Shown: piece by piece, positions 4,965 to 57,263 of the stretch
How positions within the stretch are numbered: the stretch's first letter is position 1
How the letters are laid out: the number at the start of each line of letters is the position of its first letter
From: Isoetes taiwanensis
Taxonomy: Eukaryota; Streptophyta; Lycopodiopsida; Isoetales; Isoetaceae
DNA: 64,000 nt
NCBI GenBank assembly: GCA_021234155.1
Contig: JAJEKV010000019.1
Coordinates: 2,401,999-2,465,998, forward strand
Direction of reading: 5' to 3'
Position numbers and translations under genes: made by a program
The notes under the pieces: generated by a model
Databases searched by the model: none
What the model was told of the DNA's origin: nothing
The model's input: the letters and a program-made list of their open reading frames with translations, nothing else

Positions 4965-5880
4965 TGGGAATCTCAAGAGAATCTTTGGGAATCAAAGGGA
5001 ATCTCAAGAGAACCTTTGGAAAATCAAAGGAAGGAAGGAAGGAAGGAAGGTACTTTTATCGTCCACGGAGACCAATCGGTCTATGGGACCCAATACAAAA
5101 ACGCAGCAAGCGGATTACTGCCCGGATTAAAAAACCCCCGCCCCGAAGGGTTTTCGAGGGAAAAACCGTGGCAGCAATCAGCCTGCTGACAAACTGTGCT
5201 AATCATATAAAATGCAGAAACATCCCAATATATACAGTCATGCACCACCCCCGTAGTGCCTAGTCAGCGGACAGCCAGGCCCCACTGATCAGGGAGCCTA
5301 TAGAAATCACGAGAGAATCTTTGGGAAATTAAGGGAATCCAAGGGAATCTTCATAGAACCTTTAAAAATCTAGAGGAATCTTGATGGAATCATGTAAAGT
5401 CTAAGGGAATCTTCATAGGATCTTAGAGAATCTAGATGAATCTTAAGAGAATCTTTAGGAATCTAAGGGAATCTTTCTAAAGGCTTGAGAATCTAGTGAA
5501 ATCATGATAGAATCTTGGAGAATCATGGAGAATTTTCCTATAATCTAAAGGAATCTAGGAGAATCTTCATCAAATCTTGGAGAATTCAATAGAACTACAT
5601 AAAATCTTAGGGAATCTAGAGGGAATCTTGGGGAATCTTGGGAAATATCAAGAGAACTTCTCTGAATCTAGGGAAATATAAGGAAATTTAGAGGAATCTT
5701 CATAAAATCTTGGAGAATCTGGGAGAATCTACATAGAATCTTGAAGAATCTTGGCATAATCTTTGGAAATCTAGAAGAATCTAAAAAGAATCTTTGTGAA
5801 CATAGGAGATATAAGGGAATCTTCATAAAATCTTCATAGAATCATAAAGAATCTAGGGAAATGCTTATAGAATCTTCATT
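4965..5880 (+). repeat. GAATCT-type minisatellite interrupted by a foreign block
   Basis: Irregular repeats built on GAATCT(AA/TG)GG run from 4965 to about 5030 and again from 5300 to 5880. They match the tail of the large composite elements at 37.8-43.7 and 53.2-57.2 kb, but no head is present. Between them, about 5031-5295 has a different composition: a GGAA run, then CG-rich sequence with an AAAACCC/GGGTTTT stem near 5128-5153. I read this as an insertion into the minisatellite. Confidence 0.75.
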
Positions 5881-5917
5881 GAATGACTTTGCATTGGCTT
5901 CCAGTCGAATTTGTGCA

Positions 5918-5980
5918 GTCCCTCATAGTAGAACCACTTGTATATATATATATATATACAAGTATTTGTACTATGAGGGA
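5918..5980. mobile_element. Hairpin MITE with (TA)n centre
   Basis: The arms CCTCATAGTA..ACTTGTATATA and TATACAAGT..TGTACTATGAGG face each other across a short TA run, and the right arm ends GGGAGTA. The CTCCCT-like ends beside a TA dinucleotide resemble Stowaway (Tc1/mariner-type) MITEs. The family assignment is an inference from the ends alone. The same arm sequence occurs at 17288, 22211, 30955, 37737 and the ends of the large elements. Confidence 0.7.
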
Positions 5981-6109
5981 GTATACAAAGCTGAATGTAC
6001 GTACACAGGTTTCCCCAAAATCTATTAATATTCGCCAGGATAATGCGAGTATTCTTTAAGATTACACAAAGATTCACTTGAAAGCACACCTAGTGTGAAG
6101 GATATATTT

Positions 6110-6999
6110 TATTCCTTTAAGATCCCCCTAGAAAAAATTGATAAAATATATCCTCCACGTGCGAAGTTGAACATACATACGTGGGGAAAGACTTCCCAAG
6201 TTTCTATAAGGTTTCTAAGTTTATCAACATTCCATTAAGACTAGCCAATATTCTTTTAAGATTCTAACTACACCTATCTCTACATTTGGGTATATTGCTC
6301 ATGCTTATGCTGCTGTAAAACCATGGCTGATCAATTTCAAACAGAATGGAACTGCAACAGCCTGTATTCAGACACAAGCTTCTGATCCTTGCTACCAACT
6401 GCCCATTCAGGCCCTAACTTTGTCCACCAAAATTGAAGCTTGCACATCTTTCTTATAACTAGCAAGATGACAAGTTTTAGATTATTTTGCTACCATTGAA
6501 TGACAATGGACTTCAAATAACACAAAGTACACTAGCCATAGCAATCATCATCCTTATTATATAGATCTCAGTTCTAGAGTCTACCACAAGCAACCCTAAT
6601 CCATGTTGCTATAAGTAATACCAACGCATTATATTGAATGAAGCCCCCCACTTAACTTAAAATGACAACTAAGATTAACGGGTAGAAATATGTAGTACTT
6701 AATGAAATAGAAAGGCATATCAGTATCAAAGAATGTAGTTGTTCTTGGCATCAAATTATCTTGATTGTCACATAAACGACAGTCGACTCAAAAGCCACAT
6801 AAACGTCAGTCAGTCGACTCAAAATCCCTCCTTTGGAAAATAGGCTTACATTATTACTCGGACACTTCATAGGCTCACAATAAAGATTTAGAAAATATAG
6901 AGCCTGAAGTGAACTGTTGTCTTCCTGCATTGATATCATTGTGTACTTCATATTTACATGAAGTGCTTGAGGCTGCAGATGACAGCAAACATGATTGAA
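6110..6999. other. Non-coding stretch
   Basis: No convincing exon on either strand. A small imperfect tandem, ACGACAGTCGACTCAAAA and its variant, lies at about 6776-6825. Confidence 0.35.
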
Positions 7000-7545
7000 C
7001 CTGGGTAGTCCATTCACACAACGACCATATAAGAGCATATGGGAAGAGCATCATATATTTGAAAAGCTAGAAACACTCTTAATGCAATGAAGAAGGGCAT
7101 GAACATAAATAACTTGGTGCATAAACTGGAGCAACACAACTCCAAATGTTGGTGTGTTACTTCTTGCTCAAGGACGTTAAAGATGCCTGCTACCAAATTC
7201 AACGAAGAAGCGTTGTGTGCTGCAAGCCTGAATTTTGTGTAGGTGCAGGTGCTGCAAAGTTAAACACGCCAAAGTCTTAAGGTACACACCTGGGTAGTCC
7301 ATTCACACAACGGACCATATAAGAGCATATGGGAAAACACTCTTAATGCAATGAAGAAGGGCATAAACATGAATAACTTTGTGCATAAACGGGAGCAACA
7401 CAACTCCAAATGTTGGCGTGTTACTTCTTGCTCAAGGACGTTAAAGATGCCTGCTACAAAATTCAACGGAGAACCGTTGTGTTGTGTGACGCAAGCCTGA
7501 ATTTTGTGCAGGTGCTGCAAAGTTAAACACACCATAGTCTTAAGG
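7000..7545. repeat. Tandem duplication, units of about 289 and 257 bp
   Basis: Copy A starts at 7000 and copy B at 7289, both with CCTGGGTAGTCCATTCACACAACG. Copy B lacks about 30 bp present in copy A after GCATATGGGAA. The long minus-strand open frames here are repeated in both copies and show no recognisable protein. I treat them as non-coding. Confidence 0.85.
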
Positions 7546-8157
7546 AAAAACACACTTAAAAGGGATAGAAGAATGCCCTGTACTCTATTGATGGCCAAGA
7601 GTGGGAAAACAATAAAGCAGAAAAGAAAGGTCAAAGCAACGAAGATTAGTCATTGTTACTAGAATGAGTAGTTTACTAATAAAGTTTCAAGGTGCAATGC
7701 AACGAAAAAAATCTTGACACCAAGAACGAATAGTTCATCATGTAACAAAAATAGTGTCTAGATGCAGTAGGACACTTGAAGCTGGAACTGTGCATCCCTC
7801 TAACGGGTTTAAGGAAATGATTCACAGAGACCAAATTACCAGCAATAGTCTCCAGATGATAGAAGGCATTCTATCAAGATGAGGTGATGATCTCGATCAG
7901 AATTATTGCCTGTAGGGCCAGAACTAAAATGCCTTTTGCCTTGATGCAGGAGCACTATTAATTATAAGGATAGCACATGACCTGACTTCCTGCCTAAGAA
8001 CCAAGCATGCCGTTATGATCTTTTGAACTTCAAATTTCCATGGACTCAGCTATGCACTTAGACAACTTGGAATAGGAATCATGTGCATGAGAATTTCCTG
8101 TATGACCATGCATGCACAGAAGGAGAGTTTATTGGAATTTGGAAGAAGACGAGGGGC
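7546..8157. other. Non-coding, perhaps 3' flank of the minus-strand exons
   Basis: No exon is seen. It lies downstream of the stop at 8158 on the minus strand, so it may hold that gene's 3' UTR. Confidence 0.3.
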
Positions 8158-8520
8158 TTAAGCAATTGACAATGTTACGCTAGAAAAATTTCCATGATTG
8201 CCATACTTAACTATTATAAATAAATGACCATTTACTTTCTCTAGGCATTTGGCATACATGATGTTGTCTTGGGGTGCATGACCAAGATTTCTTTTGATGA
8301 GCTCCTCAATTATCTTTGGCAGCCTAGAAGGATCTACAACACCTTCTGCATAAATTACCGTTTTCCCTCCAATATCAACGAGTGTCACATTCACCTGGCT
8401 GGAAAGCAAGATAAAGAGTCCATATAATCCAAACAGCGATACATTGTTATTTAGAGGAGCCACAAAACTCACCTCAAAACGTATAGCAGTGCTTGCACTT
8501 ATACCTGTCTGCACCTCCAT
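8158..8520 (-). CDS. Two 3' exons of an unrecognised minus-strand gene
   Basis: Reading leftwards, a piece reading STAIRFE ends at a GTGAGT donor near 8472. A TCCAGCCAG acceptor near 8397 then opens a long in-frame exon: VNVTLVDIGGKTVIYAEGVV, PSRLPKIIEELIKRNLG and CLEKVNGHLF, with a stop at 8158. The mix of beta-strand-like and amphipathic helical stretches looks like a real globular C-terminus. The codons stay open through the intron too, which makes one long frame. I do not recognise the family. The exon at 8633-8778 is probably from the same gene. Confidence 0.5.
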   Translation of the reverse strand: MEVQTGISASTAIRFEVSFVAPLNNNVSLFGLYGLFILLSSQVNVTLVDIGGKTVIYAEGVVDPSRLPKIIEELIKRNLGHAPQDNIMYAKCLEKVNGHLFIIVKYGNHGNFSSVTLSIA

Positions 8521-8632
8521 CTAAGAATTAATGTGGAAACAATTTCGAGCAATTAGAAGCCTATTCATTTTCCCCTTGAATTTACAATAGGAGTAAACTA
8601 CCTGTGTGATGGGCAAGCAACCTGAATATTGC

Positions 8633-8778
8633 AGCTGGTCCAAAACATCCACAGGGCAAATAGTTGTGAATGTGGTTGCAAATGGCACCATTTAGACAAT
8701 CTGTTATGTCTTGTAATTGTTCGGACAGAAAATCTGGGATAAAACCTGGTCAAGCAATCAGATCCAGTTGGGCCACTT
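8633..8778 (-). CDS. Internal exon of the same unrecognised minus-strand gene
   Basis: Between a TTGACCAG acceptor and an ATATTCAG/GT donor, one frame reads FIPDFLSEQLQDITDCLNG then NHIHNYLPCGCFGPAAIF. It is Cys-rich at the end and has no stop. The spacing (about 110 bp upstream of the 8472 donor) and matching strand suggest it joins the 8158-8520 exons. The phase at the joins was not resolved. No family is recognised. Confidence 0.45.
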
Positions 8779-8879
8779 CTTGTGTTAAACCTGTGAAATC
8801 CCAAACGCAACCCAATTCAAGTCCGCTGTTGCACCTGCAAATGAAGAACTATCTTTAAATGGAAGACTAGTGACCCCAT

Positions 8880-10110
8880 GGCCTCTTCGCTAAAAAAAAT
8901 GCGGCAATGATTCCTATCTGCCGGTGATAAGTGGCGGGTTATAGAGGGCCCGTAAAATTGCACCTCTCTCGAAAACATTATTGCTTAACAAAGCCGCCAC
9001 CGATTATGAAAGAAAGAGTACTTAACTAAGAAAGGTGCTACTTACTTAAGAGCGCCAACTCTTGGATGCAGACAAATGACAAATGACAGACCAATAGCAG
9101 TCCAGTTCGATTTAACCACATAAATAGTTGGCAGCCAAAACAATCACATTAAACAAATAATGCAAAGAATAGGACCTCCACCGAGAGTGTTCGTAGAGGA
9201 AAGCATATGCATTTGACATTTATTAAATCATTTCTAAAGCATAAAGGCAAACATAAGAACCTCAAGACAACGAGTCCCGGCCAAGCATACTTGAACTATC
9301 TCAGATAAAAAGGGGGAATCGTCACGGAGTAGAAAACATGGCTGCTCAAAAATTGACCCAATGTTTAAGGCTATTTCTTTGCAAATAACATGTTATGATG
9401 CTAACTATAACTTCGAAATCGTGATTCCAAATGAAGTAGCAATGACAAAGCTACTTGCCACACCAAACGAGTCCGGATATATATGGTATCGATGCGCTTT
9501 CGTGGATGCGAATCTTAGCGTGCGACGATATAGGCCCACTTTTTATCGAGAAAATGTTAAGGGTTCCTCCAAATCGGCTCCAAAGCACCCTTTTGGAAGA
9601 TCCATATTATACGGGCAAATCATAGAGGCGCCATACTTGCTAAAAAAACTTCGTGGGTAGAGCTCCCCAAAATACGAGTCGAAAATTTTCTTGTATTTTA
9701 TCTCAGTATCTTCTCGGCGATCATTCTTATGCGTAAAAAACCTTGAGCTTCCTCTCGGCATATACTCTGTTATTGTGCGAAAACACAATCACCCCACATG
9801 CATAGAAGCCCCTCAGAAAACCGATGGCGAGCTGTGTTGGGTATGAAAACCGACATGTAGATGATAGTGGATATGGATCTCGTACCCTTCAGAGTAACCG
9901 TTTTGCAACAAATCTGAAAGCTTTGCTAATGCGCCGAGAGTGCTCCTATTCGATCAATAACCAAGAGCATATCCAGACGAGCAAGAAAAATTAGATGTCC
10001 GCATTGCGGTAAGAATAACCTAGATTTGCAAATCTCTATTAACGATAGGAATGAATCGGAAAAGCCTTCAAACTAAGCCTCGGCATTTTTTCTTGTTGTG
10101 CCAAAAAGCC
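8880..10110. other. No supported gene; open frames of unknown meaning
   Basis: Open frames occur on both strands at 9361-9788. The minus-strand one contains FDSYFGELYPRSFF. The sequence is unusually rich in CG and poor in CTG/CAG from about 9480 on, like the HSP70 fragment beside it. Frames here may therefore be corrupted, and I assign no product. Confidence 0.3.
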
Positions 10111-10119
10111 TCAAAGAAT

Positions 10120-10507
10120 GTCTTTCATCTTGGTTAGAACCATTGAAGATATTTCTTCAAAGAAGAAACTGCTTTTCCTCGCCCTTGCACCGCATACAAT
10201 AATCATGGGCTTGTCACCGTCCAGAATAACCTTGAATGGCCGGGCTTATTGTCGCCCCCAACGAGGTATCGAGAACCGCCTTCAATCAAACGCTTTGGCA
10301 TCAAAAAACGGTGTTAACTTAATGGGGTTCCCCGTCGCATCTCCGATAAGACGTTCGGTATCGCGAAAGGCCACATAGGAAGGAGTGGTCCTGTTACCCC
10401 TTTGTCATTTGCGATGATCTCAACACGATCATGCCGCCAAGCTCCGACGCAAGAATAGGTGTAATACCAAGATCGATACAATGGCGAGCCTTCACCCTTC
10501 CTACCAT
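10120..10507 (-). pseudogene. HSP70 N-terminal (nucleotide-binding domain) fragment, frame disrupted
   Basis: On the minus strand an ATG at 10507 is followed by pieces of the Hsp70 ATPase domain in order, spread over all three frames. They are a degraded IDLG, then [31 protein letters not shown], a GDKPMI-type stretch, GEEKQF and [12 protein letters not shown]. Hsp70 chaperones bind ATP through this domain and fold client proteins. The span of 388 bp is almost exactly what the first ~130 codons need, so the damage is many tiny indels and substitutions rather than large loss. The disagreements cluster where conserved plant HSP70 genes usually have CTG or CAG. The rest of the gene was not found, so this is a truncated or 5'-exon fragment. 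It may be a real pseudogene or a badly read intact exon. Confidence 0.8.
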
Positions 10508-10939
10508 CTCCAAAATCTAAGAAAAAAAAGCGGATTTTTGACAACGGGTTTCATCTCAGATACACAACCACAAACCCAATGCAAGCATCCGCACTGGGTA
10601 ATGCCTTATCGCGGGAATGATAAGCAAAGAAACGAGAGGAAGCCGTGGGCGATATTCTTGAGAGAAGATAAATTTTCACCCATTTGCATTTGCGGATTAC
10701 CAGACGGATAAGGCGACGTGGGAAACCCAGGATCTCAGAATGCTGTGGTTAGTAAAGGCGTAAGAAGAAGATGCAAGCCCTGAAACCTCCCATCCCACCT
10801 TGGATTCAATAAGAAAAGGATGAAAATACCATTGTCGGGCATGAGATAGTCTAAAAAAAAATGCAGAAGAAAAAATCTTTATGCCACGTCATAGGAGGCC
10901 ATTAAGAATTGTCATCATTAAAAGCTTTTAAAAAAAATG

Positions 10940-11620
10940 AAAAAAAAAAAAGACATATGGCATGGCGCCACCTCACAATGGCATTTAATTCATTCTCTTT
11001 ATCAATGGTCTAGATTAATTCCTCTAAATCGACTTCCGCTTTAATCAAAAGCCCCAACTCAAGCTCATAATGTGGTGCAATTCTATACACCCGACGGCTC
11101 AGATTTTATCCCCAAATCTAACGGTCGAAAACAAAAGCCCCAAATAAAGGGGCTTTCTGGGTGGCGCAACGTGGGCCGTCGAGATCTGAGATGGACGGCC
11201 GGGATCAGATTATCTACATTCAATATAATTGTATATATATAGGTGATATATCTATTATATCAGTTATATATATACAATTATATAAGTGTACCAAATGTTT
11301 GTCAGAATCTAGAAAGTGTGCCGTTTGACGGCCCAAGATTGTGAGATCTACTACGAGACGAAGCCACGTCGTGATTCCCAAAGAACCCCCTTTATTAAGT
11401 GTACCAAATGTTTGTAACCCGAGGTGTCATCGCCGCCGGACCAACTGAAGCCATTCATCCAGGCAAGTCGACGTCTTTGGATGGACGGCTTCAAATCAAA
11501 AGCCCCTTTATTTAGGGCTTTTATTTTTTAGGACCGCTAGATTTGGGAATTCAATCTAAGCCATCGGTATTATTATGCTAATTTATGAGGTGGCAATTTA
11601 ATGGTCAACATTAATTGCCA
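10940..11620. mobile_element. Head-to-head pair of small AT-ended elements around a TA palindrome
   Basis: A reverse-oriented copy (about 10940-11245) and a forward copy (about 11245-11620) meet at a palindrome of TATATATACAATTAT and its complement, near 11225-11283. Both arms carry the landmarks GACGGCC, AAGCCCC..GGGGCTTT, a CCGTCGG-like block and GAGGTGGC. The same landmarks occur at 17.3-17.8, 22.2-22.6 and 31.1-31.3 kb. No transposase is visible, so these are non-autonomous. Confidence 0.65.
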
Positions 11621-11639
11621 CCCAAAAGTGGCACCCTAT

Positions 11640-12450
11640 TCGAATCATATCTACATTTTCGTACTGCTCGCTGGACCATAGCCTCCGTGCCGCCATAGCT
11701 GAGCTCGTTACCACCAGATTTGGACTTCCGATTCTTCTCTGCTTGGCTTCCACTGTTATTTTTCTCTCAATTCTTACCACCAAATTCAATTCAGATTTTT
11801 CTGCTCATCCCGACGCTGAATCCCCATTTTAGATTGCGATTTGCTTCATAACAGAGGCATTAAACTCTTGCATACTCTGCCGGATGAAGAATTGCTGGAT
11901 CTTGCAGGTAGCGGCGACAATAGGCTAATTCATGAAGGATAAGAATAATAATTCATCAACGTGTACCATTGACTCATTTCCTAGATCTGTGCCGCCTCGA
12001 GGTCCACCAGAGCTATTATATTCGGAACCACATAAGATTTTTCCTTCTGCATTTTTTTTAGACACTTTCGGGGTTCTGCCCGCGAGTTTTTTCTGGGCGC
12101 TAGTATGGCCGGCTGTATGATTTATTGGCGCTCATGCCGGCATCGTATCGATCTTCCACACTGAAGTTGGATTCGAAACATTGAAGTTTGAATCTAAAAG
12201 GGTGCTTTGGAGGTTTTCATTTGCTCTAGGCTGTGCTTTGTTGTCTGCCATATTTGTCTCAAAATTTCTAAAGTTCGTGGAGATGAATTGAAGCAAGCAA
12301 AACATGGCAAACAAAAGGGTAGCCAACACAAAATTCAATTCGGTGGATTTTTTTCTGCCTAAATGGGTGAGGTGAGGGGGAGCCTCTGATCTATACTTTG
12401 TCTGGTTACACTTTTCAGGAACACTAGCCATGGGAGGAAGCAAGCCGAGC
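11640..12450. other. Possible cargo or flank of the element; no gene supported
   Basis: The part near 11690-11790 (CTTCCGATT.TTC then CTCCACT-like and TTTTTCTC) resembles 17870-17990, which follows another copy of the same element. This suggests the element family extends past its conserved head. No protein is recognised. Confidence 0.35.
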
Positions 12451-12879
12451 AAATATGGTAATGGACACCAATTTTTTGCTTTGTTTAAGCGGGGGCTTTA
12501 AAGCCACAATTAATCTTGAGCAACTTATCGTTTGCCTGCAGATCATTTATGGCCTTGGGCTAGTTTTCTGCAATGATCTGGCTCTCGGATGCTCCAGGAT
12601 TCCAGTGTCATTCACAGAGAATTTAAATAAATTCCTCCATGCGATCAGCTATGGCATGAAAGTTTTGCAAGAACGTCCAAGTCTCTGGTGTCCGCCTATG
12701 AGCTCAGGCCTGTGTTCAGAAGCCAAAAGGGTAGGTTTTACTTCAACGGAAAAGTTCTTGGAGGTTGGGGCTCCATTTTGAAAATTCAATTTCCTCAACG
12801 TCTTTGTCAGAATTATTTATGTAGTAAGTTAATGTAGTTAGGGATGGCAAGAAGCATTGCCATTGTTTGCCGATCATAG

Positions 12880-12951
12880 CTTGTGATTTTGGTTGGAGAG
12901 GGAAGAGCTGGGAAAACAATAGCGCTGAATACCTTTCTGCCAATGTGGTAG
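12880..12951 (+). CDS. Short exon with a P-loop (Walker A) motif
   Basis: After a CATAG acceptor, an uninterrupted frame reads LVILVGEGRAGKTIALNTFL and then stops at 12949-12951. G(E)GRAGKT fits the Walker A consensus GxxxxGK(S/T). A hydrophobic strand before it and GRAGK within it recall Roc/Ras-type or NTPase modules of LRR-GTPase and NLR-like proteins. Only about 24 codons are present, with no donor before the stop. It is therefore a fragment or an exon with a lost splice site. The exact family cannot be told. Confidence 0.4.
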   Translation, partial: LVILVGEGRAGKTIALNTFLPMW

Positions 12952-13251
12952 ATGGTAGATGCAGGTAATGACTGATCCATCTCGATCTTTATCTTTATGT
13001 GGATTTTGCATGATCTTTATGTGGATTTTACATGCAGGCATGGTTATATTTGCCGCAATTTGGCCGCTTTGCCACTATTTTAAGATTGTGACGCTGTACA
13101 ATCCGATGTTTGGTTGCTCTTGCAGAGCCAAAGCAGGTTTTCCAGGCTTGATTTTGGTAAGTTGGTGCCTCAGATCTAGCCCTTGCACGTGTTCTACAGT
13201 GCAATTTCATGTTTTAACTGATCCTTCCTTTGATTTTGCTAATGTGATTTG

Positions 13252-13919
13252 AAGATTTAATCCCTCTTTTTAGGCTATGTATTTAAGATCCGTTTAATTT
13301 GCATTTCCATGTCCATGTCCTTTGCTGCATTGCTATTATTTGCTGCTTTTGTCATTGAAAAGAACTTGAAGAAACGTTATATTAGGCAAATATAAAAAAG
13401 TCTTCTGATTTAAGCGTGCAATCTGTTACCAAACCAATTCTTTTATTGTTTTTTTGTCATGCATACTGACTCCATCCTTAGGCTTTTTGGCCATGCAGCC
13501 AGAAAATTACTTGAGAAATGAGTAGGATTGGCCAAATCATAGTGCATTTGGTATTATGGTTATCAGGATTGAAAGTTCTTTTTGCATCTAATTTTGTCCC
13601 TTGGGTTGTTTAATAATAGCTTGCTGGTGGTACTGCATTGACGCAGCAATTGAAAGAACGTCTGGAAAAGGATCTCATGGAGGTAGCAAACTGTCTGGAA
13701 AAGGATCTCATGGAGGTAGCAAACTATTTATGGCTGGTTAAAGCAGTAAACTGGTTAACATCTTTGTTTTCTACAGGAGGCACCTCAGGCAGCAAGGGTC
13801 AAAGTGCTTGCAGGTGGCAATGCAATAGAACATAGATTCAGGTTATTTGGTCTCTACTCGCACTGGCTGCTTTGTAGAATGTTTAAAGTCAGAGAATAGA
13901 AAATTGAATCTGGCGGCGC
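13252..13919 (+). repeat. ARP4 segmental duplication, copy 2
   Basis: Partner of 1-670, 13.25 kb away in the same orientation. This copy keeps coding sense and continues into the final ARP4 exons. Within it a 33-bp unit (13661-13693, 13694-13726) is tandemly repeated across the end of an ARP4 exon and its splice donor. The same tandem is present in copy 1, so it predates the duplication. Confidence 0.9.
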
Positions 13920-14198
13920 ATAGGGGACACTGATGATTTATCAGTATAATTCGTTAAAGCAAAGAACTTAACCCTTCCTAATGCACTTGGATATCTTATA
14001 TTTTGCAGCGTCTGGATTGGAGGCAGTATTCTTGCTTCATTGGGATCTTTTCAGCAAATGTGGTTCTCAAAAGCAGAGTAAGGAAGGTTTGGCATTTAGG
14101 TTAGGCTCTTTTTTTTCTCCTTGTGACTCTAATGTTTTTTGTTGAACGCCAGATTTGAGGAGCATGGGCCATCGTATGTACAAAGGAAAGGCCCCTGA
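13620..14198 (+). CDS. ARP4: Actin-related protein 4, last four exons
   Basis: Exons 13620-13682, 13777-13841, 14009-14077 and 14153-14198 join in frame with AG acceptors and GT donors. They encode [60 protein letters not shown], and [13 protein letters not shown] before [18 protein letters not shown] is the highly conserved C-terminal actin-fold signature of ARP4/BAF53, a nuclear subunit of SWR1, INO80 and NuA4-type chromatin complexes. Upstream exons (ATPase domain start) were not found in the preceding 13 kb. The gene therefore has very long introns, or this is a 3' fragment. A 33-bp tandem gives a second possible donor at 13716. Use of it would insert 11 residues. Confidence 0.9.
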
Positions 14199-30954: not shown

Positions 30955-31330
<376 letters not shown>

Positions 31331-31374
31331 ACGTTATGTGCAATGATTGCACTGGCCATGGCGACTTCTTTTCT

Positions 31375-31640
31375 AACAATTGAGCGATCGCTGGCCGAAA
31401 ATCCATCAGTTGGCAATGCTTGATGTATTTTTTAAGTTTTCTCATCCCTTTCTTATGGATTTGGCAATGGAGCGACTTCTCCGGTCGGTTTGGCCCGCAT
31501 GCGTTGAAGCGGCGTCAAGATCCTATGCCATGCCTTTGTTTTTTCTTACCTTTGTTTTTTCTTACAGTCTTATATGGCAGAGGTACGACTTAGGGGATTT
31601 GGGTTTTGTCTCTACTCCGTTTACATTAAACCGACTTTAA
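31375..31640 (+). other. Open frame of element-associated cargo
   Basis: An 86-codon frame contains FFKFSHPFLMDLAMERLLR and a later hydrophobic stretch. Its first part resembles about 18045-18145. Because both copies sit just downstream of the same kind of element, it is best described as repeated cargo. No product is recognised. Confidence 0.4.
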
Positions 31641-32335
31641 GTTTTGGGAGCTGCCCTTGCTCATACCTATGCCCGTAAGGTGAGTTGCTTTCGAGAACAC
31701 TTTTCCGATTTCTTAGAGTCAATGCAGCTGCAAAATTGTAGTGTAAACTTATCTAAGTTCAGCCGGATGTGCTTCTCCCGAGGATACAAAGGATACAACA
31801 CGAGATGGGCACTTTGCTTGGTGAATGAAGTCTTTCCCTTGGTACGTGTACATTCTAGCAGAGAGATTTGGCGCTTGCTTGTCGACAAATTGCAGTGAAA
31901 CACAGATTTTGCTCATGAAGTTTTGTTTCTAGATGGCATGATGCACCATATTAGCTGAACTAGAAATCTTTGCCCAAAAACGCAAAGAAAATTGTACTTT
32001 CATTATTCTTGGGGTTTTTACAAGTTTTTGCACATCGTGATCGATTTTTTCTTTTGCATCATGAAACAGTAAGGCGTGTGTTATAATTGGATCACTTCCA
32101 ACCCATTCCATCAAACGCCGGTCATGACATCACCCGGGCAAATGAGGTCCACAGATCCGCTTTGAAAGAGGTAGGCTAAGACCCTTTTTACCACATCGCG
32201 TAAACTTGTGAATTCATCATTTGTCTATTCAAGATATTCTTCATTTGCCAATTGGACTCGATAATTGGGCATTAATTAGCACATTGTTTAATGTTATAAT
32301 CCTTTGATCCATGTTATCGTGTCCTTGCGTAAAAG

Positions 32336-32518
32336 GTGGATAGCTTGTTGTGCGATTCACGGAGCCGCAGGGCTTTGTGCGGGCTTTATTCATTCTCACG
32401 TTTCACCGCACTCAAGAAACGTGGAGATGGCATCATAGGTCTTGATAATTTCAATAATTATTACCCTATTGCTCTTAAAAGAGCCCGAGCGAGAAACCCC
32501 AAATTGGTTGGAATGTAA
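32336..32518 (+). pseudogene. UDP-glucuronate 4-epimerase fragment, frame disrupted at its start
   Basis: One frame reads ALKKRGDGIIGLDNFNNYY and LKRARAR, the hallmark stretch after the NAD-binding glycine motif of plant UDP-glucuronate 4-epimerases (GAE family). These are Golgi type II membrane enzymes that make UDP-galacturonate for pectin. Just upstream, GGAGCCGCAGGG looks like the GAAGF glycine loop in a shifted frame. Frame breaks between the two coincide with expected CTG/CAG positions. The catalytic YxxxK region and the C-terminus were not found. GAE genes are usually intronless, so this is a fragment of about 55 residues from a protein of about 430. Confidence 0.7.
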
Positions 32519-33389: not shown

Positions 33390-35125
33390 ATATATTATCG
33401 TGAGTTAATTGCAAAGCTGGCCAACAAGATTATTGGATATGGAAATCAAAGCAAAGGAGCAATGCATCATGGTCAAGGGGCGGCAAGGTGTTGATCTTTG
33501 CTTTGTGAGCACATTTCTTTTTCTTTTTAGGCATGATTTTCTTTCACTTGGCATATTTGTCGCCGCTTTGTCTAACCAAATTCGACATGTATTCCCTCGC
33601 TTTCGTTATCCCGGATAGGGTCTCAAGAATTTTTGGGCACCGCAGTGTGTAAGCTTGATCAAAGGTTTCGATACGCTGTGCTAGGTAAATTCGTTCTACC
33701 ATATTTTCTCGACGTATGATGCAAGACATCCGATTTATGTGCAAATATGAATTGGCCCTACTTTGGTTGAAAGGAAAGGAATCGTGGAATGTGGAAGTTG
33801 TGGCTTGCTCATTAGATTCATGGTTCACATAATAACTTCGGAAAGACCTGCACTTATTTCCGCATGCTATGGCCGAAATATGCCTAATTTATGGCGCAAA
33901 ACTGCTTCTCGCATGAACCGGCTTTTTTTCTAGTCCTTAAAACGAAAGGGGAAATTTTGATTTAGAGCGAGATCATGGTTTTGCACTTTGAAATCATTCG
34001 CCAAAAGATCCGTGGCTGGTAAGCAAACTCGCTCGATTTAAGATTTGGCTGAAGCAAACTTGTGTAGACATTCAAGGGCACATGATAAATATTTATCCGG
34101 ATTAAATATCTCTACCGGATTGCTTTTGGTTAGGATATTTGGTGATTAATTCAATGTTCTAGGGGAGTAGAGAACAAAGGGCAAAAGCTTTAATCGCCTT
34201 TATTCTTCCTGTTTATTCTTCGGTTTGTTTCGTGTGTAGTTCCAGTTAGGAGCTATTTGGTTTATTAATGGTTAATTTTGCAATTTTGTGAAGGGGAAAT
34301 GTGTTGCTGACTAAGGTTCTGTGAACCAGGGAGCTAAATAAGATATTTCAGGAACATTGTCACAGCAGGAAGCTTCAAAATACAAATAGCGAGGGCTTTA
34401 AAGCCACGATTTGCCACATCATATTTTAATGTTCTCGGGTTCCTTGCAATAATGCAGGAAATCTTGAGGTATGGCAGTGAGTTTGCTCATCTGTTTTTTT
34501 TAATAGGTTATGGTCCTTTGTGACTGCGGCAACAATTCACTGCTGAAGATTGTGCGTTCTCCTCTGGAGCCCAGAAAAGTAATCCTTTTTGCTTCTACAA
34601 TTTTCCGATGCCTTTGTTGCAACTTACTGTATCAATGGCAGCAAGTGTATGTAGGCATTTGTATTTTCCTGCCCATTGATTGATTTTGTGTAGCTTTTCT
34701 GTATGCACTTGTGCTTTGAGGTCAAACGGACAGGGCTGAATAGTATCTGTTTTATCGACGAACAATCATTCTCTAATCTTAATTCTCGGAATGGTCTGTT
34801 CTGGCAAATTCTTTGGTTCTTGCCAATTTTTGGCATTGGGTTTTCCATAACCATAGACATTTATGTGGGTCTGTACCTTCTGAATTCGTATGGGCTTCCT
34901 ATTTACAAATTTGATTTGTTAGCAATTTTTAATTCAGGGTCAGAACGCATTTTTCTCTGCTTTTAAAGGTGTCGAGACCGTAATCGCATTGCAATTATTA
35001 TCCAGATGAACACTACGTGCAAAAGTTTTTACATGTATGTTTGATACATAGGTATACTATTAGCCGATCTCCTTGATTGGTAGGAATACGTTGTATTTGT
35101 GGCAGATCATGGACCCAGGTGGTCT
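33390..35125. other. No supported gene
   Basis: The plus-strand open frame at 34703-34966 has hydrophobic stretches but no recognisable motif. The rest appears non-coding or intronic. Confidence 0.3.
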
Positions 35126-35339: not shown

Positions 35340-37310
35340 ATGATGTTCTCCTGTAATGTCATCCATGTTTACTTTTGGACGTTGTACATCCATGATGCTA
35401 CCATTCTGCAACCACCACCATAGAAAAAGTTACAGCATGGTAAAATATGTTTTCAGAAGAGAAGGAAAACTGGCATATAGCCTCCAAAACTTTGCTGATA
35501 ATGTTTGTTAGTTGGAGGAGTTATGCATTTGTCAGTTGATCTTTTGAGATGCACCAATCACTTAATTACCAATATCTTGCCTTGTGACAATAATAAGATA
35601 ATCTTCAGCTTGACTGTGTGAAGCAGAAAGTGGTCAGTTTTGTACCCTGCATATGGAATGGTGTTCGGCGTCCATGCTTTCTCTTTGCACGAAAGATCCG
35701 TCCTGAGACATGTGATTTGTTAGCTTAAGATTTTGCCAAATATGACATGGAATATAGGGATCAAAGGCATGCCATCAGAGTGACTGTTTCTGTAAAGTTG
35801 TCATCATCATCGACGTCCAGGACATGCAATTGAATGATAATTTTTATGAAGCCGCTAACCAAGCTCAAAGAAAAGAAGCATGACAAAGATGTACGATTTT
35901 TCAATGGGTAGGATGTTCTTTATGTTCGGCCGATCTTTTGGCATTTAGAATGATTACTTTGTGTAATACAATTACTAGATAAAAATGAGGGAACAAAGAT
36001 TGGCCGTAAGTGATTGTAGCCTTAGAAAGGCCAGCTCAAAGAAGCCAATGAAAGATTGTTATAGTCTCAACCTATTATTATGATCATGACTAGAAACTAA
36101 GCCCTATAGTTTCTACGTGTGAAATGTAATTTTGATGATGCAACTTTTATGTGAGCTATAAAAAATCTGAGACGCTATCTCTCTATATAGTTGCAAATGT
36201 AAGCAAGTCTGTTAACAAATAGATTGGAAACGTCTTGCTGCTTACCCTTCACTTGAAGCATTCAACCTGTTTGGAAAATCTTTGTGAAATTAAGGAGAGT
36301 TATTCTTTAGTTAGATCTTTGAGGCGTGGTCCGTATTTATCAAGTGCTGAAAAACCCCATGGGTGTGCTAACGGTCTCTTTTGCTTTAGATTTTCATTGT
36401 TGTACACTTAAAACGATCTTTGACTTCGAGTTTTCATTTTGATTTAAGACAGAGAATGTGAGAAAAGCCGACAAACATGCTAAGGAGGCCATCAACCTTT
36501 TAAACTATTAAGTACACAAGCATTAGAATACTAGAAATAGTTGCAAAGATGATTGATATACAAAACATAAAACAAGGAGCTTTTGCACTGTGGGTTGCTT
36601 GCAGTATGCATTTATAAGTTAAATGTTTCTTGATGTGCATTAAACATCTTGACACATCATAATTTATGATAATAATCTCTGCATCTCCATGTTGATGCAA
36701 CTTCTTTTATAAATTGTTCAAAAAGCAACTACCTGTAAATGCAGCTGCATTGCTTTATTGCCCATACCAATGGACGTATTTGCATGGCTTAAGAGATTAA
36801 AAGACATGTGGAAAAGAACAGCCATACAAACATCATGGCATAAATATCCTCAAGCATATCATACGTCGTCTCAAATCTTTTTTGTTAGAGGACTTTCTAT
36901 ATGCTCAAAAACTAAAACCAACAAACTTTGTGCGTTCAAAAACTAAAGCCAGTAAACTTTGTGCATAGAACACTCTTTTATTAAAGCTATTGTGTTCAAC
37001 ATTGTCCTACCTTGCAATGACATAAATTCTCTTTGTCGTTATATATCGAGAAGAACTTAGATTTTTTATTTGCATATACTTTACCGGTCTATTTGCATAT
37101 TTTATTTGTGTGCCTTGATGTAGGAATATTCCCTATTTTATGCCAAATCAGTGACCTGAGTTTTCATGTCTAAAACAAAGTTGCCGAACTTATACGCTAT
37201 TTGCCGTCACAACCAATATTCAACCAATATAAAAAAAAAACCATTCCCTAGTCGCGAGACCGCAAGGCCAAAGGATGTGAACCTCAAAGCGCCCAACGGC
37301 CCTAAGGATC
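35340..37310. other. Non-coding, AT-rich
   Basis: No exon is seen. Possible intron or 3' flank of the exons at 35.1-35.3 kb. Confidence 0.35.
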
Positions 37311-37507
37311 TTCATAAAATATTTGAGAATCTAGGGGAACGTTGTGGAATATTAGAGAGTCTAAGGAATATGCATAAAGTTGACTTCATATTTGACTATA
37401 TCTTTTTCTTTGATCTTCACTTTACAATTGACTTTTACGTTTGGAGTAAATCGTGATGGGCTTATTGAACTTCGACTTTGTGTTTGACTTCCTCTTTGAA
37501 ATCAATT

Positions 37508-37615
37508 GTGGATTTAATGGGCTGCCCATACAATCGAATGTGTACATTCAAATTTAGTTTTGTGGATTTAATGGGCTGCCCATACAATCGAATGTGTACA
37601 TTCAAATTTAGTTTG
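37508..37615. repeat. Perfect or near-perfect tandem duplication, 54 bp x 2
   Basis: Units start at 37508 and 37562 with GTGGATTTAATGGGCTGCCC. The lack of visible differences suggests a recent event. Confidence 0.97.
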
Positions 37616-37736
37616 ACTTTTCTATTTACCTATACCCGATATAATGCAGTCTTTAATTTCGAACTTCCATGCTAAGATGTTATTTGTAAATTCCTCATAG
37701 AGAAAATTCAATTACAAATGTCCAGACGACTTTACA

Positions 37737-37802
37737 CTCCCTCATAGTACAAAGACTTGTATATATATATATATATATACAAGTGAGTGTACTATAAGGG
37801 AG
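37737..37802. mobile_element. Hairpin MITE with (TA)n centre
   Basis: CTCCCTCATAGTACAAAG..CTTGTATATA pairs with TATACAAG.GAGTGTACTATA then AGGGAG. The right arm is also the end of the adjoining reverse-oriented composite element. Confidence 0.75.
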
Positions 37803-38560
37803 TACACAAATTTTGAGCCATCCAAACTTAAGATTCTCTTAAGATTCCCCTAGATTCTCAAAGATTCCCTTGCGATTCTCATAGATTCCCAAAGATTCTC
37901 TTGAGCTTCCTTTAAATTCCCTAAAATCCTATGGAGATTCCCCTAGATTCTTTTAAATTCGCATAGATTCTGTAAAATTCTAAGTTTCCAAAAAGAAACT
38001 TAGTATTCGATCACATTAGCTCCAACTGCGAGGGAACGATGCCAAAGCACCACTCATTGGGAAGTTCTCGACGAGAGGAATCCAATGGTGTGGGTCTCAC
38101 CTTCATCCCAGCCCCTCATCGCAAGTTATCGCCCTTTGAAGTGATTATAAAAAAGAAGCTTCCTAGAAAGTCCATCTATTAATGTTGGTGCCACCTCATT
38201 ACCTTTTTATTAAATAAGGGTGCCACCTCACCTCTTTTAATAAAGAAATTGCAATTTAATAAAAAATTTAATGGTTAGGATTTTTCCTCCCCCTTTTGAT
38301 CCAACGGTTAAGATTGACTGCACCAAAAAGCACCTTTTAAGGGACCTTCCTTGCATCTTCCCTTTAAAAAATCAAGGGCCAAGATTTCACACGTGCCCGA
38401 TCAACGGTTCATGGATGGGGTGCATGGCCCATGCATGGCCCATGCATGCCCCCCATCAAATCCAAGGGCCATTTAAGTGCCACCTCAAAAATTAGACGGA
38501 TAGGATTAATCTCTACCCACATTCAACCCCCCATAGGACCCATCAAATAATTGTATATAT
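37775..38560 (-). mobile_element. Composite element R1, tail shortened
   Basis: Reverse orientation. The tail end (ACTATAAGGGAGTACAC) is followed by only about 160 bp of minisatellite. Then comes the full head, from the AAGTTTC..GAAACTTAG stem (about 37980) through ATCGAATAC, the GAGGTGGC blocks, the CATGCATGGGCCATGCATGG core and AATAATTGTATATATA at 38545. Confidence 0.85.
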
Positions 38561-38564
38561 ATAA

Positions 38565-40350
38565 GAGATATATATATACAAGTGAGTGTACTATAAGGGA
38601 GTACACAAATTTTGAGCCATCCAAACTTAAGATTCTCTTAAGATTCCCCTAGATTCTCAAAGATTATCCCAAATTTTCTCTACATTTCTTAAGATTCTAT
38701 ATAAATTCTCTTAGATTCCTTTAGGTTCTATCAAGATTCCCCTAGAAAAACACACTTAGTGTAAAAGATTCCCTAAGATTCCCTTAGATTCTTAGGATTC
38801 TACAAAGATTCCTCGAGATTTCAAACGTTATCACAAGGATCCTCTAAATTCTTTAGAATTCTATGTAGATTCTCCTAGATTTTGTTAGATTCTATAGAGA
38901 TTCCCCTAGAATCTTGAAAATTCCATCAAGATTCCCCTAGATTCTCAAAGATTTTATGAAGATGCGCTTAGATTCTGCTAGATTCTGAGCAATTCAATGA
39001 AGATTCTATAAAGGTTCACTTAGATTCTTGAAGATTCAGGAAAAAATATCCTAGATTCTCAAAGATTTAAGGAAGATTCTCTTAAATACTCTTAATCCCA
39101 TAAATTACTTAAGATTCTCTTAAGATTCAACTAGATTCTCAAAGATTATCCCGCATTTTCCAAGATTCTATATAGATTCTCTTAGATTCTATCGAGATTC
39201 CCCTACTAAACACACTTATTAATGAAAGATTCCTTAAGATTCCACAAAGCTTCCCTAGATTCTTAAGATTCTATAAAGATCCCTCTAGATTTTCGAACTT
39301 ATCACAAGAAACCTCTAGAGTCTCCAAAATTCTATGTGGATTCTCCTAAATTTTGTTAGATTCTATATAGATTCCCTTAGATTCTATGTAGATTCCCTTA
39401 GATTCTCTGATTTTCAAGGATTCTCAAAGATTTTATGAAGATGCACTTCGATCCTACTAGATTCTCTATGATTCTCTTGAGATTCCCATAAATTCCCTAA
39501 TTTTGTTGGGGTTCCCCTAGCCTCCTAAAGATCATCTCAAGATTCCTCTAGATTTCTCATATTTCTATGTAGATTCTCCTAGATTCCCTTAGATTCTATG
39601 AAGATTCTTCTACATTCTCAAAGGTTTCATAAAGATTCATATAGAATCTCAAAGATTCCCCTTCGATTCTCATAGATTCCCAAAGATTCTCTTGAGCTTC
39701 CTTTAAATTCTCTAAAATCCTATGGAGATTCCCTAGATTCTTTTAAATTCGCATAGATTACGTAAAATTCTAAGTTTCCAAAAAGAAACTTAGTATTCGA
39801 TCACATTAGCTCCAAGCTAGAGGAGCGATGCCAAAGCACCACTCATTGGAAAGTTCTCGATGAGAGGAATCCAATGGTGTGGGTCTCACCTTCATCAGAG
39901 CCCTCTTTTGCAGTTATCGGCCTTTGAAGTGATTATAAAAAGAAGCTTCCTAGAAAGTCCACCTATTAATGTTGATGCCACCTCATTACCTTTTATTAAA
40001 TAAGGGTGCCACCTCACCTCTTTTAATAAAGAAATTGCAATTTAATAAAAATTTAATGGTTAGGATTTTTCCTCCCCTTTTGATCCAACGGTTAAGATTA
40101 GTACACCAAAAGCACCTTTTAAGGGACCTTCCTTGCATCTTCCCTTTAAAAATCAAGGGCCAAGATTTCCCGTGCCCGATCAGCGGTTCATAGATGGGGT
40201 GCATGGCCCATGCATGGCCCATGCATGCCCCCATCAAATCCAAGGGCCATTTTAGTGCCACCTCAAAATTAAGCGGATAGGATTAATCTCTACCCACATT
40301 CAACCCCCATAGGACCCATCAAATAATTGTATATATATAAGAGATATATA
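38565..40350 (-). mobile_element. Composite element R2, full length
   Basis: Reverse orientation. Minisatellite tail is at about 38620-39770 and head at about 39775-40345. It is the left arm of the large inverted repeat, pairing with F1 across the TA palindrome at 40322-40391. No transposase or other protein is encoded. Confidence 0.88.
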
Positions 40351-40391
40351 TATATATATATATCTTATCTCTTATATATATACAATTATTT
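40322..40391. repeat. TA palindrome at the inverted-repeat centre
   Basis: AATAATTGTATATATATAAG on the left and its complement CTTATATATATACAATTATT on the right flank a (TA)n core. This could form a cruciform. Confidence 0.9.
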
Positions 40392-42030: not shown

Positions 42031-42040
42031 TAAGAGATAT

Positions 42041-43670: not shown

Positions 43671-43739
43671 TCAAAGTTGTGCAAAATCAACTAAAAGCTG
43701 CAACTAGGAAGTCAAAGTCAAAGTCAAAGTCAAATTTGT

Positions 43740-49779: not shown

Positions 49780-50640
49780 CAACTCTAACTAGCAACTCTA
49801 ACTGCTCCATCCCGAAATACGACAGATGTTAAAATGACAAAGAAAGGCTCCAATTCTCCCAAAAAACAAACAGATAGATTGAGAATATTAGCACATGCAT
49901 CTATTTCCACAACACATAGAAGTCTATATAAATTTACATGGCCTAAAGTGTTGTAGGTTCAAACTTACCCTCTGTTTGTTTGTTTAACGAAGACTTGCAT
50001 CTAAGATACCCATGTACTGTATATGGCTTCCCCAGGTCAGTCATATTGGGCGATTTTAAGGTTCAATGTGCAAATTCCTTGGCTATAATTGGATTGCACA
50101 TGGTTTCCCATTACCTAATAATTCATTCAACATGGCCAATAACATCCATTTTTATTGTTTATTACTGACCAAACATAGGTTCGCACTACAGGTAAAGTCC
50201 TTGACACTAGTGGCAATCAGTCATCAGCAATCCACAACATTAAACACAAAGGAGCAAGATGAAGAAAAGCGAAATAACAACATACATTAGTGCCATCAAA
50301 GTTTTCTTATTGCACAACTCAATACTAATAAATCTACAGTTTTCCTATCACATGAGGACCCAAAAACAAAGCACAATGGATATCCAGACTTGCCGTCAAG
50401 CAAAGATATTACTCTAAGAAATGCAACAAATAACTAATACGTTTATTCACTTACCTAAGTTAAAAGGAGCATAGAATGTACAATGGCCGAACGAAAATAC
50501 GATAGAACAACTTATCACGAAACCTAACTACAACAACATGATAGAATGAAAAATCACGTAAAAGAACTTAGAAACTAAACATTCTACTCAATCGGATTAG
50601 CACTTGATCCGTTTGTATCCAGATTCCCTTGTTGATTCCC
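49780..50640. other. Non-coding, AT-rich
   Basis: No exon is seen. Possible intron of the minus-strand gene(s). Confidence 0.3.
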
Positions 50641-52500
50641 TTGGTCACAAGAAAATAAAGCACGATCGACCATGGGCGCAGAGATACACCGCCGATCAAA
50701 AACCTTGCGAGAAAAATAAGGGTTAGTTCACGGGCCCGGGCAAAGAACAGTCTATGCCTCGGCTATGGCTTGTCTTTGTTAGCATATTGATCCCCTCGAA
50801 TACCAAGCAAGCTCAGCCGTGACTCAAGCCGTTGGCATAATTGATCCCGGCCCAATACTTCGCCATACCGGCCAATGGCATTAATTGGCGATTCTAAATT
50901 AGATTCAGATGCCAAAAGAAGGAAATCCAAGGCGAGAGAAAGGCAAATTTTCAAAACTTCGCCATGCCAGCCCCATTCCGGCCGGTTTAAGCTATACAAA
51001 AAGAATGATTTACATCAGACGATTAAAAAGAAAGAATGAATCTACTCAAAGAAAGGTGATTTCTTGCCCGGTTAATGCAAGTCGAATGCAAACATCAAAA
51101 CCCTCCTTTAGTCCTTTCGAGCGGATGTCTTCACAAGTTTGCTCGGCGAGGATATCTTCGCCACCGATTTACCCGCTCTGAGAACGAAATAATCTTTAGT
51201 TCCATAGGTCTTCACATCCATAAGTACGTACCATAGCTAGGCTTGCTCCGCGCCTAATACTTATGCGGTCGGTCGGTGGAACTTCTCATGCATGCATCCG
51301 GAAAAGCAAAAACATGACTTCTGATGAACTTACATAATTGAATTTGAATTCGAAATTTAGAGCGGTCAGGCAAAAATTATAGAGATCATCACGAGATTGA
51401 TCAACAAATAAACAAAAAGGGGGTTGAAGCACTTTCTAGATCAAGCTCCTCCTTACATGTGATCCGGCACGAACAAATTGGCATCTCGCATTATCTATGC
51501 AAAAGATCCATAACCTTCCAGTTATGCAAAAGTATACTCGTGATTGAACTAAAGGCTTATAGCGAAAGTGAGACAAAGGAAGACATGAACACGGAAGCCG
51601 AGAAGACGCTTTGCATTTGTGCAAATGAGACCGAGATTCCCGCATAATAGTTTTAAGTAAAGTGGTTCTAAAACTACAAAGAGCACTGCTCCCATTCTCA
51701 CCCAAATATGATTGATAGATCTCGGGGATCCAACATGTTTAGCGGGGACGCTTGATTGGAAGAGCCATTACAATACACCTAATAGATTCTTGCAATGCGT
51801 GCATTCATCATGTTTCATGTTGGGCGTGTTTTCTGATGAAGTCTGAAATAAATTTGAACTCTACTTTTGGAAGAAAATATTCAATCCCACGACTCAAAGA
51901 AGAAATTAAATCGAGAAGGAACCCAATATAGACCACGAACCTTTTGCGATCCGTGTCATCCCGCCTTGTATGATATTTCAAAATCAGATTTGGAAATGGA
52001 TTCCGGATCATCCCGCCCTATATTATATTTCAAAATTGTATTCCATCTTGAACCTAAGATTGTGTACCACACTCAAATTAAGCGACTTTTGCTTAAATCA
52101 GCCTAGTTTATGTAGCCATGCGCTTATTATCATATCTTCCACATCTATTAAATCTTTCGAATGGGGTTTTAAAAATTGAATGTAAGAGATGAGGTTACAC
52201 GGTTAAGAAGGCCTACCTAGAGATTGCACAATAGCATGGATTGCGTGGTTTGACTGCGAAACGGGACCAAAATAATCTGCCACGAGAGATATATACATGC
52301 CGCATATGTCGGAGTAGTTATTCTCGCAAGCCGCAAAGAAGAAGAAACCTTATCACGCTTAATGGCGCATGAAAGAAGAAGCAAAGCGAACGAAGAGCTT
52401 CTCACAATGAATTGACAATATAGTTTGGTCGGACCGCTTTGCATCCCGAATCCTTCTCCTCTCCATGACGAGCTTCTCAAAAACCAAAACCACTTGCAAT
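50640..52500 (-). pseudogene. CG-rich stretch with corrupted minus-strand coding frames
   Basis: Open pieces succeed one another on the minus strand. An ATG at 52466 starts MERRRIRDAKRSDQTILSIH, then after a frame break comes YSDICGMYISLVADYFGPVS (52211-52325). Near 51060-51170 there is EDILAEQTCEDIRSKGLKEG, and near 50763-50999 YSLNRPEWGWHGEVLKICLS. No single family explains them. CG dinucleotides are frequent and CTG/CAG scarce, as in the HSP70 and epimerase fragments. I suspect one or more real genes whose frames are obscured by base errors. Boundaries are uncertain. Confidence 0.35.
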
Positions 52501-52899
52501 TTCCTAATCGGCGTAGTTTTGTAAGGCCGCAATAACAACCGTGAATTAACTCCGCAACAACACAGTCATAATCAAACGATCTTTCTAGAAATAGCTCAGA
52601 AAATCTTGATGCAATGCAAAATCGGCCCGATCTTTGCTTACTTGGGCATGCACCATGGAGAAGAAAAAACTACTTCATGTATGACTTTAACACCGCCTGG
52701 TGTGCCATTTCTACAAGCTCCTTTTGGAAGTGGCCCCGAAGACTTGCAAAAAACGCTACTTTTTCATCCAAAACTATGTCCCGTAACTTCTCATGAGAAA
52801 ACGTGAGGATAATTCCAACTCCAAAGGGTCTGTTGTAAGTGATCTGGTCTCAAAGAATTAAATCTCTAATGGTTTCTCGGCGTTCCTAGAAGTTGTATA

Positions 52900-53213
52900 T
52901 ATTGACTAACGGATAAATACGAGTGCATAGAAATCATATAATTGGAGCTTTATAAGTACTAAAACCAGCACAAAAGAACCCGGTCTGGGGCTCGTAGAGA
53001 CCAATTCACCTGCATTTGCAACGGCAGCTACTAGCTCAGACTTGAAATGTCGTCCAAGGGGCCCTGAACGATGGCAGCCTTTGAATTGGAGCGAATGCCA
53101 AAGCCGCAGATCCGCAAAAAGATAAGTCAAGAAGAACTTCGATTGCGTAATGCTTTTGGCATGGCGGCCGGTTGTCGCGGAGAGAGGATGCACGGCTGCA
53201 AAATTCTCATCAT
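52900..53213 (-). other. Open frame related to 18.56 kb, beside a composite element
   Basis: A minus-strand frame contains HPLSATTGRHAKSITQSKFF and SELVAAVANAGELVSTSPRP. Its first 60 bp resembles 18560-18625 on the plus strand. It ends where element F3 begins, so it may be element-associated cargo or 5' leader. Confidence 0.35.

Positions 53214-57170: not shown

Positions 57171-57261
<91 letters not shown>
55410..57261 (+). mobile_element. Composite element F5, full length, ending in (TA)n
   Basis: Head is about 55410-55990, minisatellite tail to about 57130, terminus TGTACTCCCTTATAGTACAC, then ACTTG and a pure TA tract at 57173-57261. The tail matches F3 unit for unit over most of its length. 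Confidence 0.9.

Positions 57262-57263
<2 letters not shown>

Follow-up and report, generated by a model that had tools for sequence, protein, structure and literature searches.

CAG and CTG sites are rewritten in repeat patches of an Isoetes taiwanensis assembly, most probably by systematic sequencing error

A multi-copy element in the lycophyte Isoetes taiwanensis carries a broken fragment of an HSP70 gene, and its copies differ from one another chiefly at the trinucleotides CAG and CTG (together, CWG). We analyzed one stretch of 64,000 nucleotides, the window, from the 1.66-Gb assembly (GCA_021234155.1, contig JAJEKV010000019.1, positions 2,401,999 to 2,465,998; in our numbering G000:C1007:2401999-2465998), and compared it with related loci, numbered with L, from the same assembly. 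Duplicate copies agree closely off CWG and disagree at CWG, and the damaged patch shifts between copies. CWG turns mostly into words that bear CG or have changed length, and CG sites are far less affected. We put the probability at about 0.9 that this damage is mainly systematic sequencing error at CWG. The likeliest source is nanopore miscalls of CHG-methylated cytosines, left in place by consensus building and polishing.

An HSP70 fragment altered at CWG sites

The fragment lies on the minus strand and is recognizable as HSP70 (Pfam PF00012, E=3.5e-10; PDB phmmer, E=2.6e-32, for a query made by joining the broken frames), as an earlier note on this DNA had proposed. We compared eight HSP70 loci out of 88 genome matches. 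Among the eight, the intact gene L005 is the close relative, aligning in two blocks at 88% and 86% identity; L001-L003 match at 70-72% and the remaining four do not match. The earlier note had described a full-length exon at 10118-10720. Homology instead covers only about 10083-10544, with none at 10545-10720, and comprises exon 1 and the start of exon 2 without the 344-base intron that separates the two matching blocks in L005. Precise loss of a parental intron is a feature of processed retrocopies; a full-length coding copy, another such feature, is absent, as HSP70 homology stops near codon 145 and three codons are missing in a frameshift-aware alignment to the L005 protein.

Damage concentrates on CWG. 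Over 10083-10544, 16 of the 18 CWG sites of L005 read differently in the window (CAG 7/9, CTG 9/9), as do 4 of its 17 CG sites. The L005 CWG zones contain 33 affected bases; in a control of 434 shifts, which moved the pattern of affected bases along L005, they contained 14.6 on average and never more than 25. Against L014, a copy of the element described below, 12 of the 27 difference events involve CWG, where shifted controls average 4.7 and reach 8 at most, and 3 of 17 CG sites of the HSP70 part are altered. The claim that every difference falls at CTG or CAG goes too far: most CWG sites are altered, but only 15 of 34 merged events against L005, like the 12 of 27 against L014, touch CWG.

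Frame breaks differ in number from copy to copy. Aligned to the L005 protein, the window shows 14 frame breaks, 21 residue mismatches and 3 missing codons; for L014 the figures are 1, 6 and 5, and neither has a stop. Breaks number 8-11 in each of L010-L013, three of which also carry a single stop. L015 aligns over residues 27-117 only and shows 3 breaks, 2 stops and 26 mismatches there. The suggestion that the pseudogene is an artefact thus applies to much of the damage and not to the rest. The HSP70 piece is a truncated, spliced fragment inside a multi-copy element rather than a working HSP70, and correct reads would not restore one, because the truncation, the splicing and the repeat setting would persist and L014 is imperfect as well.

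L005 need not be the direct parent, because shorter 5' pieces occur at 14 further places in the genome (partial matches, 81-90% to the window), of which only L019 was compared; another parent, or further carriers of the HSP70 piece, are possible. L019 (G000:C1070:7673179-7673333; 155-156 bases) is 97% identical to L005 and 90% to the window. The 3' part has two further partial matches, both on C1007, the contig of the window.

HSP70 genes elsewhere in the assembly behave differently. Among L001-L003 (95.6-96.8% identity), 5-13 of 82-91 CWG sites are altered, none by a change of length, and 5-10 of 17-21 CG sites. The HSP70 array of L004, L006, L007 and L008 shows a weaker surplus at CWG (altered at 3-19 of 45-61 sites, compared with 5-20 of 159-176 A/T trinucleotides); CG is altered about equally often (7-19 of 34-38), which means that ordinary divergence contributes there. 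Contigs C1068, C910 and C1055 carry many HSP70 copies, several with in-frame stops, and some of these apparent pseudogenes may be partly artefactual.

Two young duplicates disagree at CWG

A duplicate on the same contig provides a comparison that does not depend on choosing a well-preserved reference. Positions 5233-13919 recur as L021 (G000:C1007:2394000-2402668), 13.2 kb to the left of the window copy. The offset of about 13.2 kb suggests a tandem unit beginning near 671, of which the compared part starts at 5233. The copies are 98-100% identical in the blocks at 6.0-8.0k. Of the 210 events over the 8.7 kb compared, 109 involve a CWG in at least one of the copies, where shifted controls give 26.5 (standard deviation 4.4, maximum 38). 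Other classes lie below their shifted means: CHH 123 against 147, GAT/ATC 22 against 34 and CAT/ATG 21 against 39.

Counted in the two directions, 80 of 198 and 48 of 166 CWG sites are altered. These 128 sites comprise 73 that gain CG, 35 that change length, 8 C-to-T changes and 12 others. The damage occupies different ground in the two copies. L021 is the damaged copy at 8.2-8.7k and, for the most part, over 11.6-13.9k. At about 8.8-9.7k and 10.2-11.1k it is the window that is damaged, and at 9.7-10.2k and 11.2-11.6k both copies are. Within damaged blocks, about half to nearly all CWG of one copy is altered. The difference possibly records differing methylation of two young duplicates. Just past the end of the compared duplicate, 14007-14078 (+) encodes a C-terminal actin exon (PF00022, E=6e-11).

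CWG changes recur independently among copies of the element

An 821-base query finds the element in L010-L014 at 87-92% identity and in L015 at 71%. When these copies and L005 are aligned, they are closely identical between CWG sites and disagree at them, copy by copy; L014 retains CAG or CTG at nearly all sites. Longer stretches extend the comparison: L025 includes L014, and L026 includes L015, which otherwise stays out of the counts based on L025. The 53 L025 CWG sites altered in the window divide into 30 that gain CG, 13 with a length change, 5 of C-to-T type and 5 others, and 13 of 54 CG sites are altered, 3 of them by C-to-T type changes.

Across six copies compared with L025, CAG/CTG is the most altered of 32 trinucleotide classes (260/341), and ATG/CAT (30/370) and AAT/ATT (14/360) are seldom altered. 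Classes that hold CG (28-44%), GTA/TAC (54%), ACT/AGT (47%), AGA/TCT (40%) and GCA/TGC (37%) are intermediate, probably in part through overlap with CWG and through differences private to L025 that are counted once per copy.

The changes arise repeatedly. With L026 dropped as a partial match, 60 L025 CWG sites in five copies give 261 altered site-copies of 300, judged over nine bases, which counts changes beside an intact CWG. Of the same sites, 36 are altered in all five copies, 24 are mixed and none is intact throughout. On the same nine-base basis, a single origin for each change is incompatible with 135 of 276 informative site pairs. CWG alterations therefore recur independently among copies.

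The element resembles the transduplicated gene fragments of plant mobile elements, being multi-copy and carrying host pieces (HSP70 and a xyloglucan fucosyltransferase); unlike those, its HSP70 piece is spliced. The fucosyltransferase piece is C-terminal and lies at 6249-6404 (+) (PF03254, E=1.2e-5).

A second repeat family shows the same change

Damage is not restricted to the HSP70 exon, an idea ruled out by the patch at 8.8-11.6k and by a separate stretch at 51000-52500. The latter has six copies at 91-93% identity and one (L040) at 82%, all near full length, besides many partial copies. The window copy holds 64 CG and 12 CWG, L034 holds 23 CG and 61 CWG, and the other six hold 44-59 CG and 12-35 CWG. 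In all 28 of the 28 copy pairs, which are not mutually independent, more events touch CWG than in any of the shifted controls. Pooled over the 21 pairs without the more distant L040, 606 of 1271 events touch CWG where 167 are expected, and 724 of 1116 CWG sites are altered, 494 by gaining CG and 22 by C-to-T change. A copy of this element has a CG observed/expected ratio (o/e) of 0.41, so a ratio near 1 is not native to its DNA.

We pooled both families (five and six copies, without L026 and L040) and judged alteration over five bases. On this basis 526 of 666 site-copies carry an alteration, which is a new CG in 330, a changed length in 126, a C-to-T change in 15 and something else in 55. The families share some wrong words, including TCAGC->TCAAAG, TCAGA->TCGA and GCAGT->GCGGT, and one context word occurs on both strands as reverse complements.

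Damaged patches are rich in CG and short of CWG

Composition marks the patches. The 603 bases at 10118-10720 hold 36 CG and 6 CTG or CAG, matching the by-eye figures of about 35 and 6 that first drew attention to this place; 10083-10544 alone has 25 CG and 3 CWG. At least 36 CG occur in 1 of 1268 windows of the same length (step 50), and that one overlaps 10118-10720 and holds 9 CWG.

Because the patches had been picked partly on CWG, the relation between CG and CWG was retested with CG as the sole measure. In 98 windows of 500 bases, chosen regardless of CWG and with the main repeats excluded, CG has its strongest negative correlation, among 32 trinucleotide classes, with CAG/CTG (rho -0.52, p 5e-8), followed by AGG/CCT (-0.43), ACT/AGT (-0.40) and ACA/TGT (-0.39). 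Chance therefore does not account for the joint CG excess and CWG shortage. The patches have a CG o/e of about 0.8-1.2 and TG/CA of about 1.0, and CAA/TTG and CTA/TAG are not elevated in patches that were picked partly on CWG.

Pfam scans of three patches returned HSP70 at 9.0-12.2k and otherwise weak matches below the cut-offs. A plasmid search gave no match, and Rfam gave none at the gathering score.

Miscalls at methylated CHG as the most probable cause

A technical error at CWG accounts for the motif, the mixture of words, the patchiness, the copy-specific state and the intact flanks. It would require reads from native DNA on a nanopore platform and dense CHG methylation of the damaged patches, both of which the pattern suggests. 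A base-caller whose training data were chiefly CG-methylated and bacterial DNA might read 5-methylcytosine (5mC) as though G came next, and a methylated C followed by W and G would then be written as CG, CCG, CGG or similar. The called words would tend to hold CG because 5mC in training data presumably precedes G in most cases. Consensus would be unable to repair such errors because CHG is symmetric and the reads of both strands would err at one and the same position, unlike at asymmetric CHH. Undamaged copies might be unmethylated, or might be those reached by short-read polishing.

Several observations weigh against this explanation. Platform and methylation are inferred from the sequence pattern. 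About half of the events lie off CWG, outside the reach of a CWG miscall: 19 of 34 against L005, 15 of 27 against L014, 101 of 210 between the duplicates and 665 of 1271 in the second family. Some of these differences, by eye and uncounted, are common to sister copies or are changes of run length. Between the duplicates, three further classes are touched more often than in any shifted control: CG (103; mean 25.1, maximum 39), TCA/TGA (56; mean 36.3, maximum 51) and AGG/CCT (45; mean 27.3, maximum 41). An excess at CG is expected if CWG becomes CG in the other copy, and the other two classes overlap CWG. L025 and L034 were selected for keeping CWG, which inflates one-way loss counts; the duplicate-pair and all-pairs tests are free of that choice. 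Identical wrong words in the same five-base context across families reach 12.6% against 8.5%, a moderate excess. Finally, in 36 kb sampled elsewhere (six 6-kb places at round coordinates) the CG/CWG anticorrelation is weak (rho -0.29, p 0.09), and a CG o/e of at least 0.8 with CWG below 0.7 occurs in 2 of 36 windows.

Ordinary decay, in which an old retrocopy or transposon mutates and is hastened by deamination at methylated CG and CHG, is very unlikely. It would suit a truncated, intronless fragment in a repeat, and it would cover the half of the events that lie off CWG, some of them common to sister copies. Deamination, however, is expected to turn CWG into TWG or CWA and to deplete CG. C-to-T changes are instead few in the pooled families, in the duplicate pair and in the second family, CG sites are mostly retained where CWG is lost, the patches lack both the CG depletion and any rise in CAA/TTG or CTA/TAG, and duplicates that are 98-100% identical at 6.0-8.0k still lose about half to nearly all CWG in damaged blocks. 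The earlier note had preferred error to decay on similar grounds, namely that deamination fits poorly and that CTG and CAG become CG-type words. Both points are borne out by the counts above, as is the preference itself, by copies that are alike between CWG sites, differ independently at them and show little C-to-T.

Equally improbable is a technical cause that does not involve methylation, in which long-read consensus stayed unpolished in repeats beyond the placement of short reads and retained other motif-dependent errors. The tested damage does lie in repeated DNA, length changes are common, and polishing might have reached just the copies that are undamaged. A symmetric CWG bias joined to a gain of CG fits 5mC at CHG rather than generic noise, and closely similar copies differ in state from patch to patch. 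Least probable of all is that the bases are real and that some in vivo process in silenced repeats, perhaps guided by chromatin to give the motif-specific, patchy and copy-specific pattern, rewrites CHG-methylated CAG and CTG into CG-bearing words while largely sparing CG sites, making CG-rich patches from CWG-rich DNA: we know of no such enzyme chemistry, which counts against it, single-base indels with context-dependent words resemble base-calling, and most CWG of a patch would have to change within otherwise near-identical duplicates.

Relation to known errors and consequences

If miscalls at CHG-methylated cytosines are indeed the cause, the damage belongs to a known kind, modification-mediated base-calling error, and the lesions are no real feature of the plant. 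In the text examined of a Klebsiella study, about 70% of the consensus errors of then-current Oxford Nanopore base-callers fell at 5mC in CCAGG/CCTGG (PMC6591954). Those Dcm errors resemble the present ones in being systematic, in sitting at a short symmetric CWG-type 5mC motif and in not being removed by depth. The present case differs in that most CWG of the tested kilobase patches of plant repeats is rewritten, much of it to CG words, and in that the platform is deduced. Recurrent errors where a base-caller was untrained on a modification have been corrected in Listeria through amplification or Modpolish (PMC10687267); that case is bacterial and, in the text examined, lacks a CWG-to-CG pattern.

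For plants, sections of two papers name scarce native training data as a cause of poorer nanopore accuracy (PMC7501810, PMC9749173). The second describes lower accuracy in plants and species-specific base-callers, with methylation differences between lineages as a likely cause; its main text mentions neither CHG nor CAG nor CTG. Among the matches listed in open-licence PMC text, we found no description of CWG-to-CG rewriting in plant nanopore assemblies, and the parts of PMC10849370, PMC10027222 and PMC9716091 examined give no account of it.

If the damage is sequencing error, kilobase repeat patches of a 1.66-Gb assembly are wrong at most CAG/CTG sites. The consequences would include false frame breaks, false CG-rich islands, inflated repeat divergence and misleading dates for insertions; as an example of such inflation, the duplicates share 98-100% of their bases at 6.0-8.0k but come out at 95% over the full stretch. 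A simple alarm that needs no reads would be a CG o/e near 1 with a CWG o/e under about 0.6 beside a low-CG background, with disagreement among copies at CWG as confirmation. Should the methylation account be right, the errors also reveal, by accident, which copy of a repeat carried CHG methylation; the two duplicate units, damaged in different stretches, are an example.

Features and other observations

Table 1. Coordinates, within the window, of the fragment, the element, its compared parts and the compositional patches
Feature	Position	Strand	Remarks
Intronless HSP70 fragment, from the 5' untranslated end through exon 1 to the start of exon 2 of an L005-like gene	10083..10544	-	From L005 alignment
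Multi-copy element carrying the HSP70 fragment, approximate extent	5925..11290		Matches of differing extent in L022-L026; ends AT-rich
Element part aligned with CWG-rich copy L025 (3775-5381)	9132..10743		53/60 L025 CWG altered in window
Stretch duplicated as L021	5233..13919		= L021 1-8669; 95% overall
Damaged patch	8800..11600		From 9.0k: CG o/e 0.8-1.2, CWG o/e 0.2-0.7
Second patch, same composition	50250..53200		51000-52500 is the part compared with copies
Third patch	31150..32500		Composition alone
Fourth patch	33500..34100		Composition alone

Three other repeat pairs in the window have 2/7, 4/6 and 3/7 CWG sites altered, numbers too few to judge. Within the third patch, 32382-32488 (+) has an intact middle part, broken outside it, that may resemble plant UDP-glucuronate 4-epimerase (GAE); it has no Pfam match. 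Long arrays of GAATCTA-like units occupy 36400-44900 and 53200-57300, with 10-, 21- and 31-base repeats and near-identical blocks, some of them inverted (411 bases at 100%), and are mostly low in CG and CWG alike.
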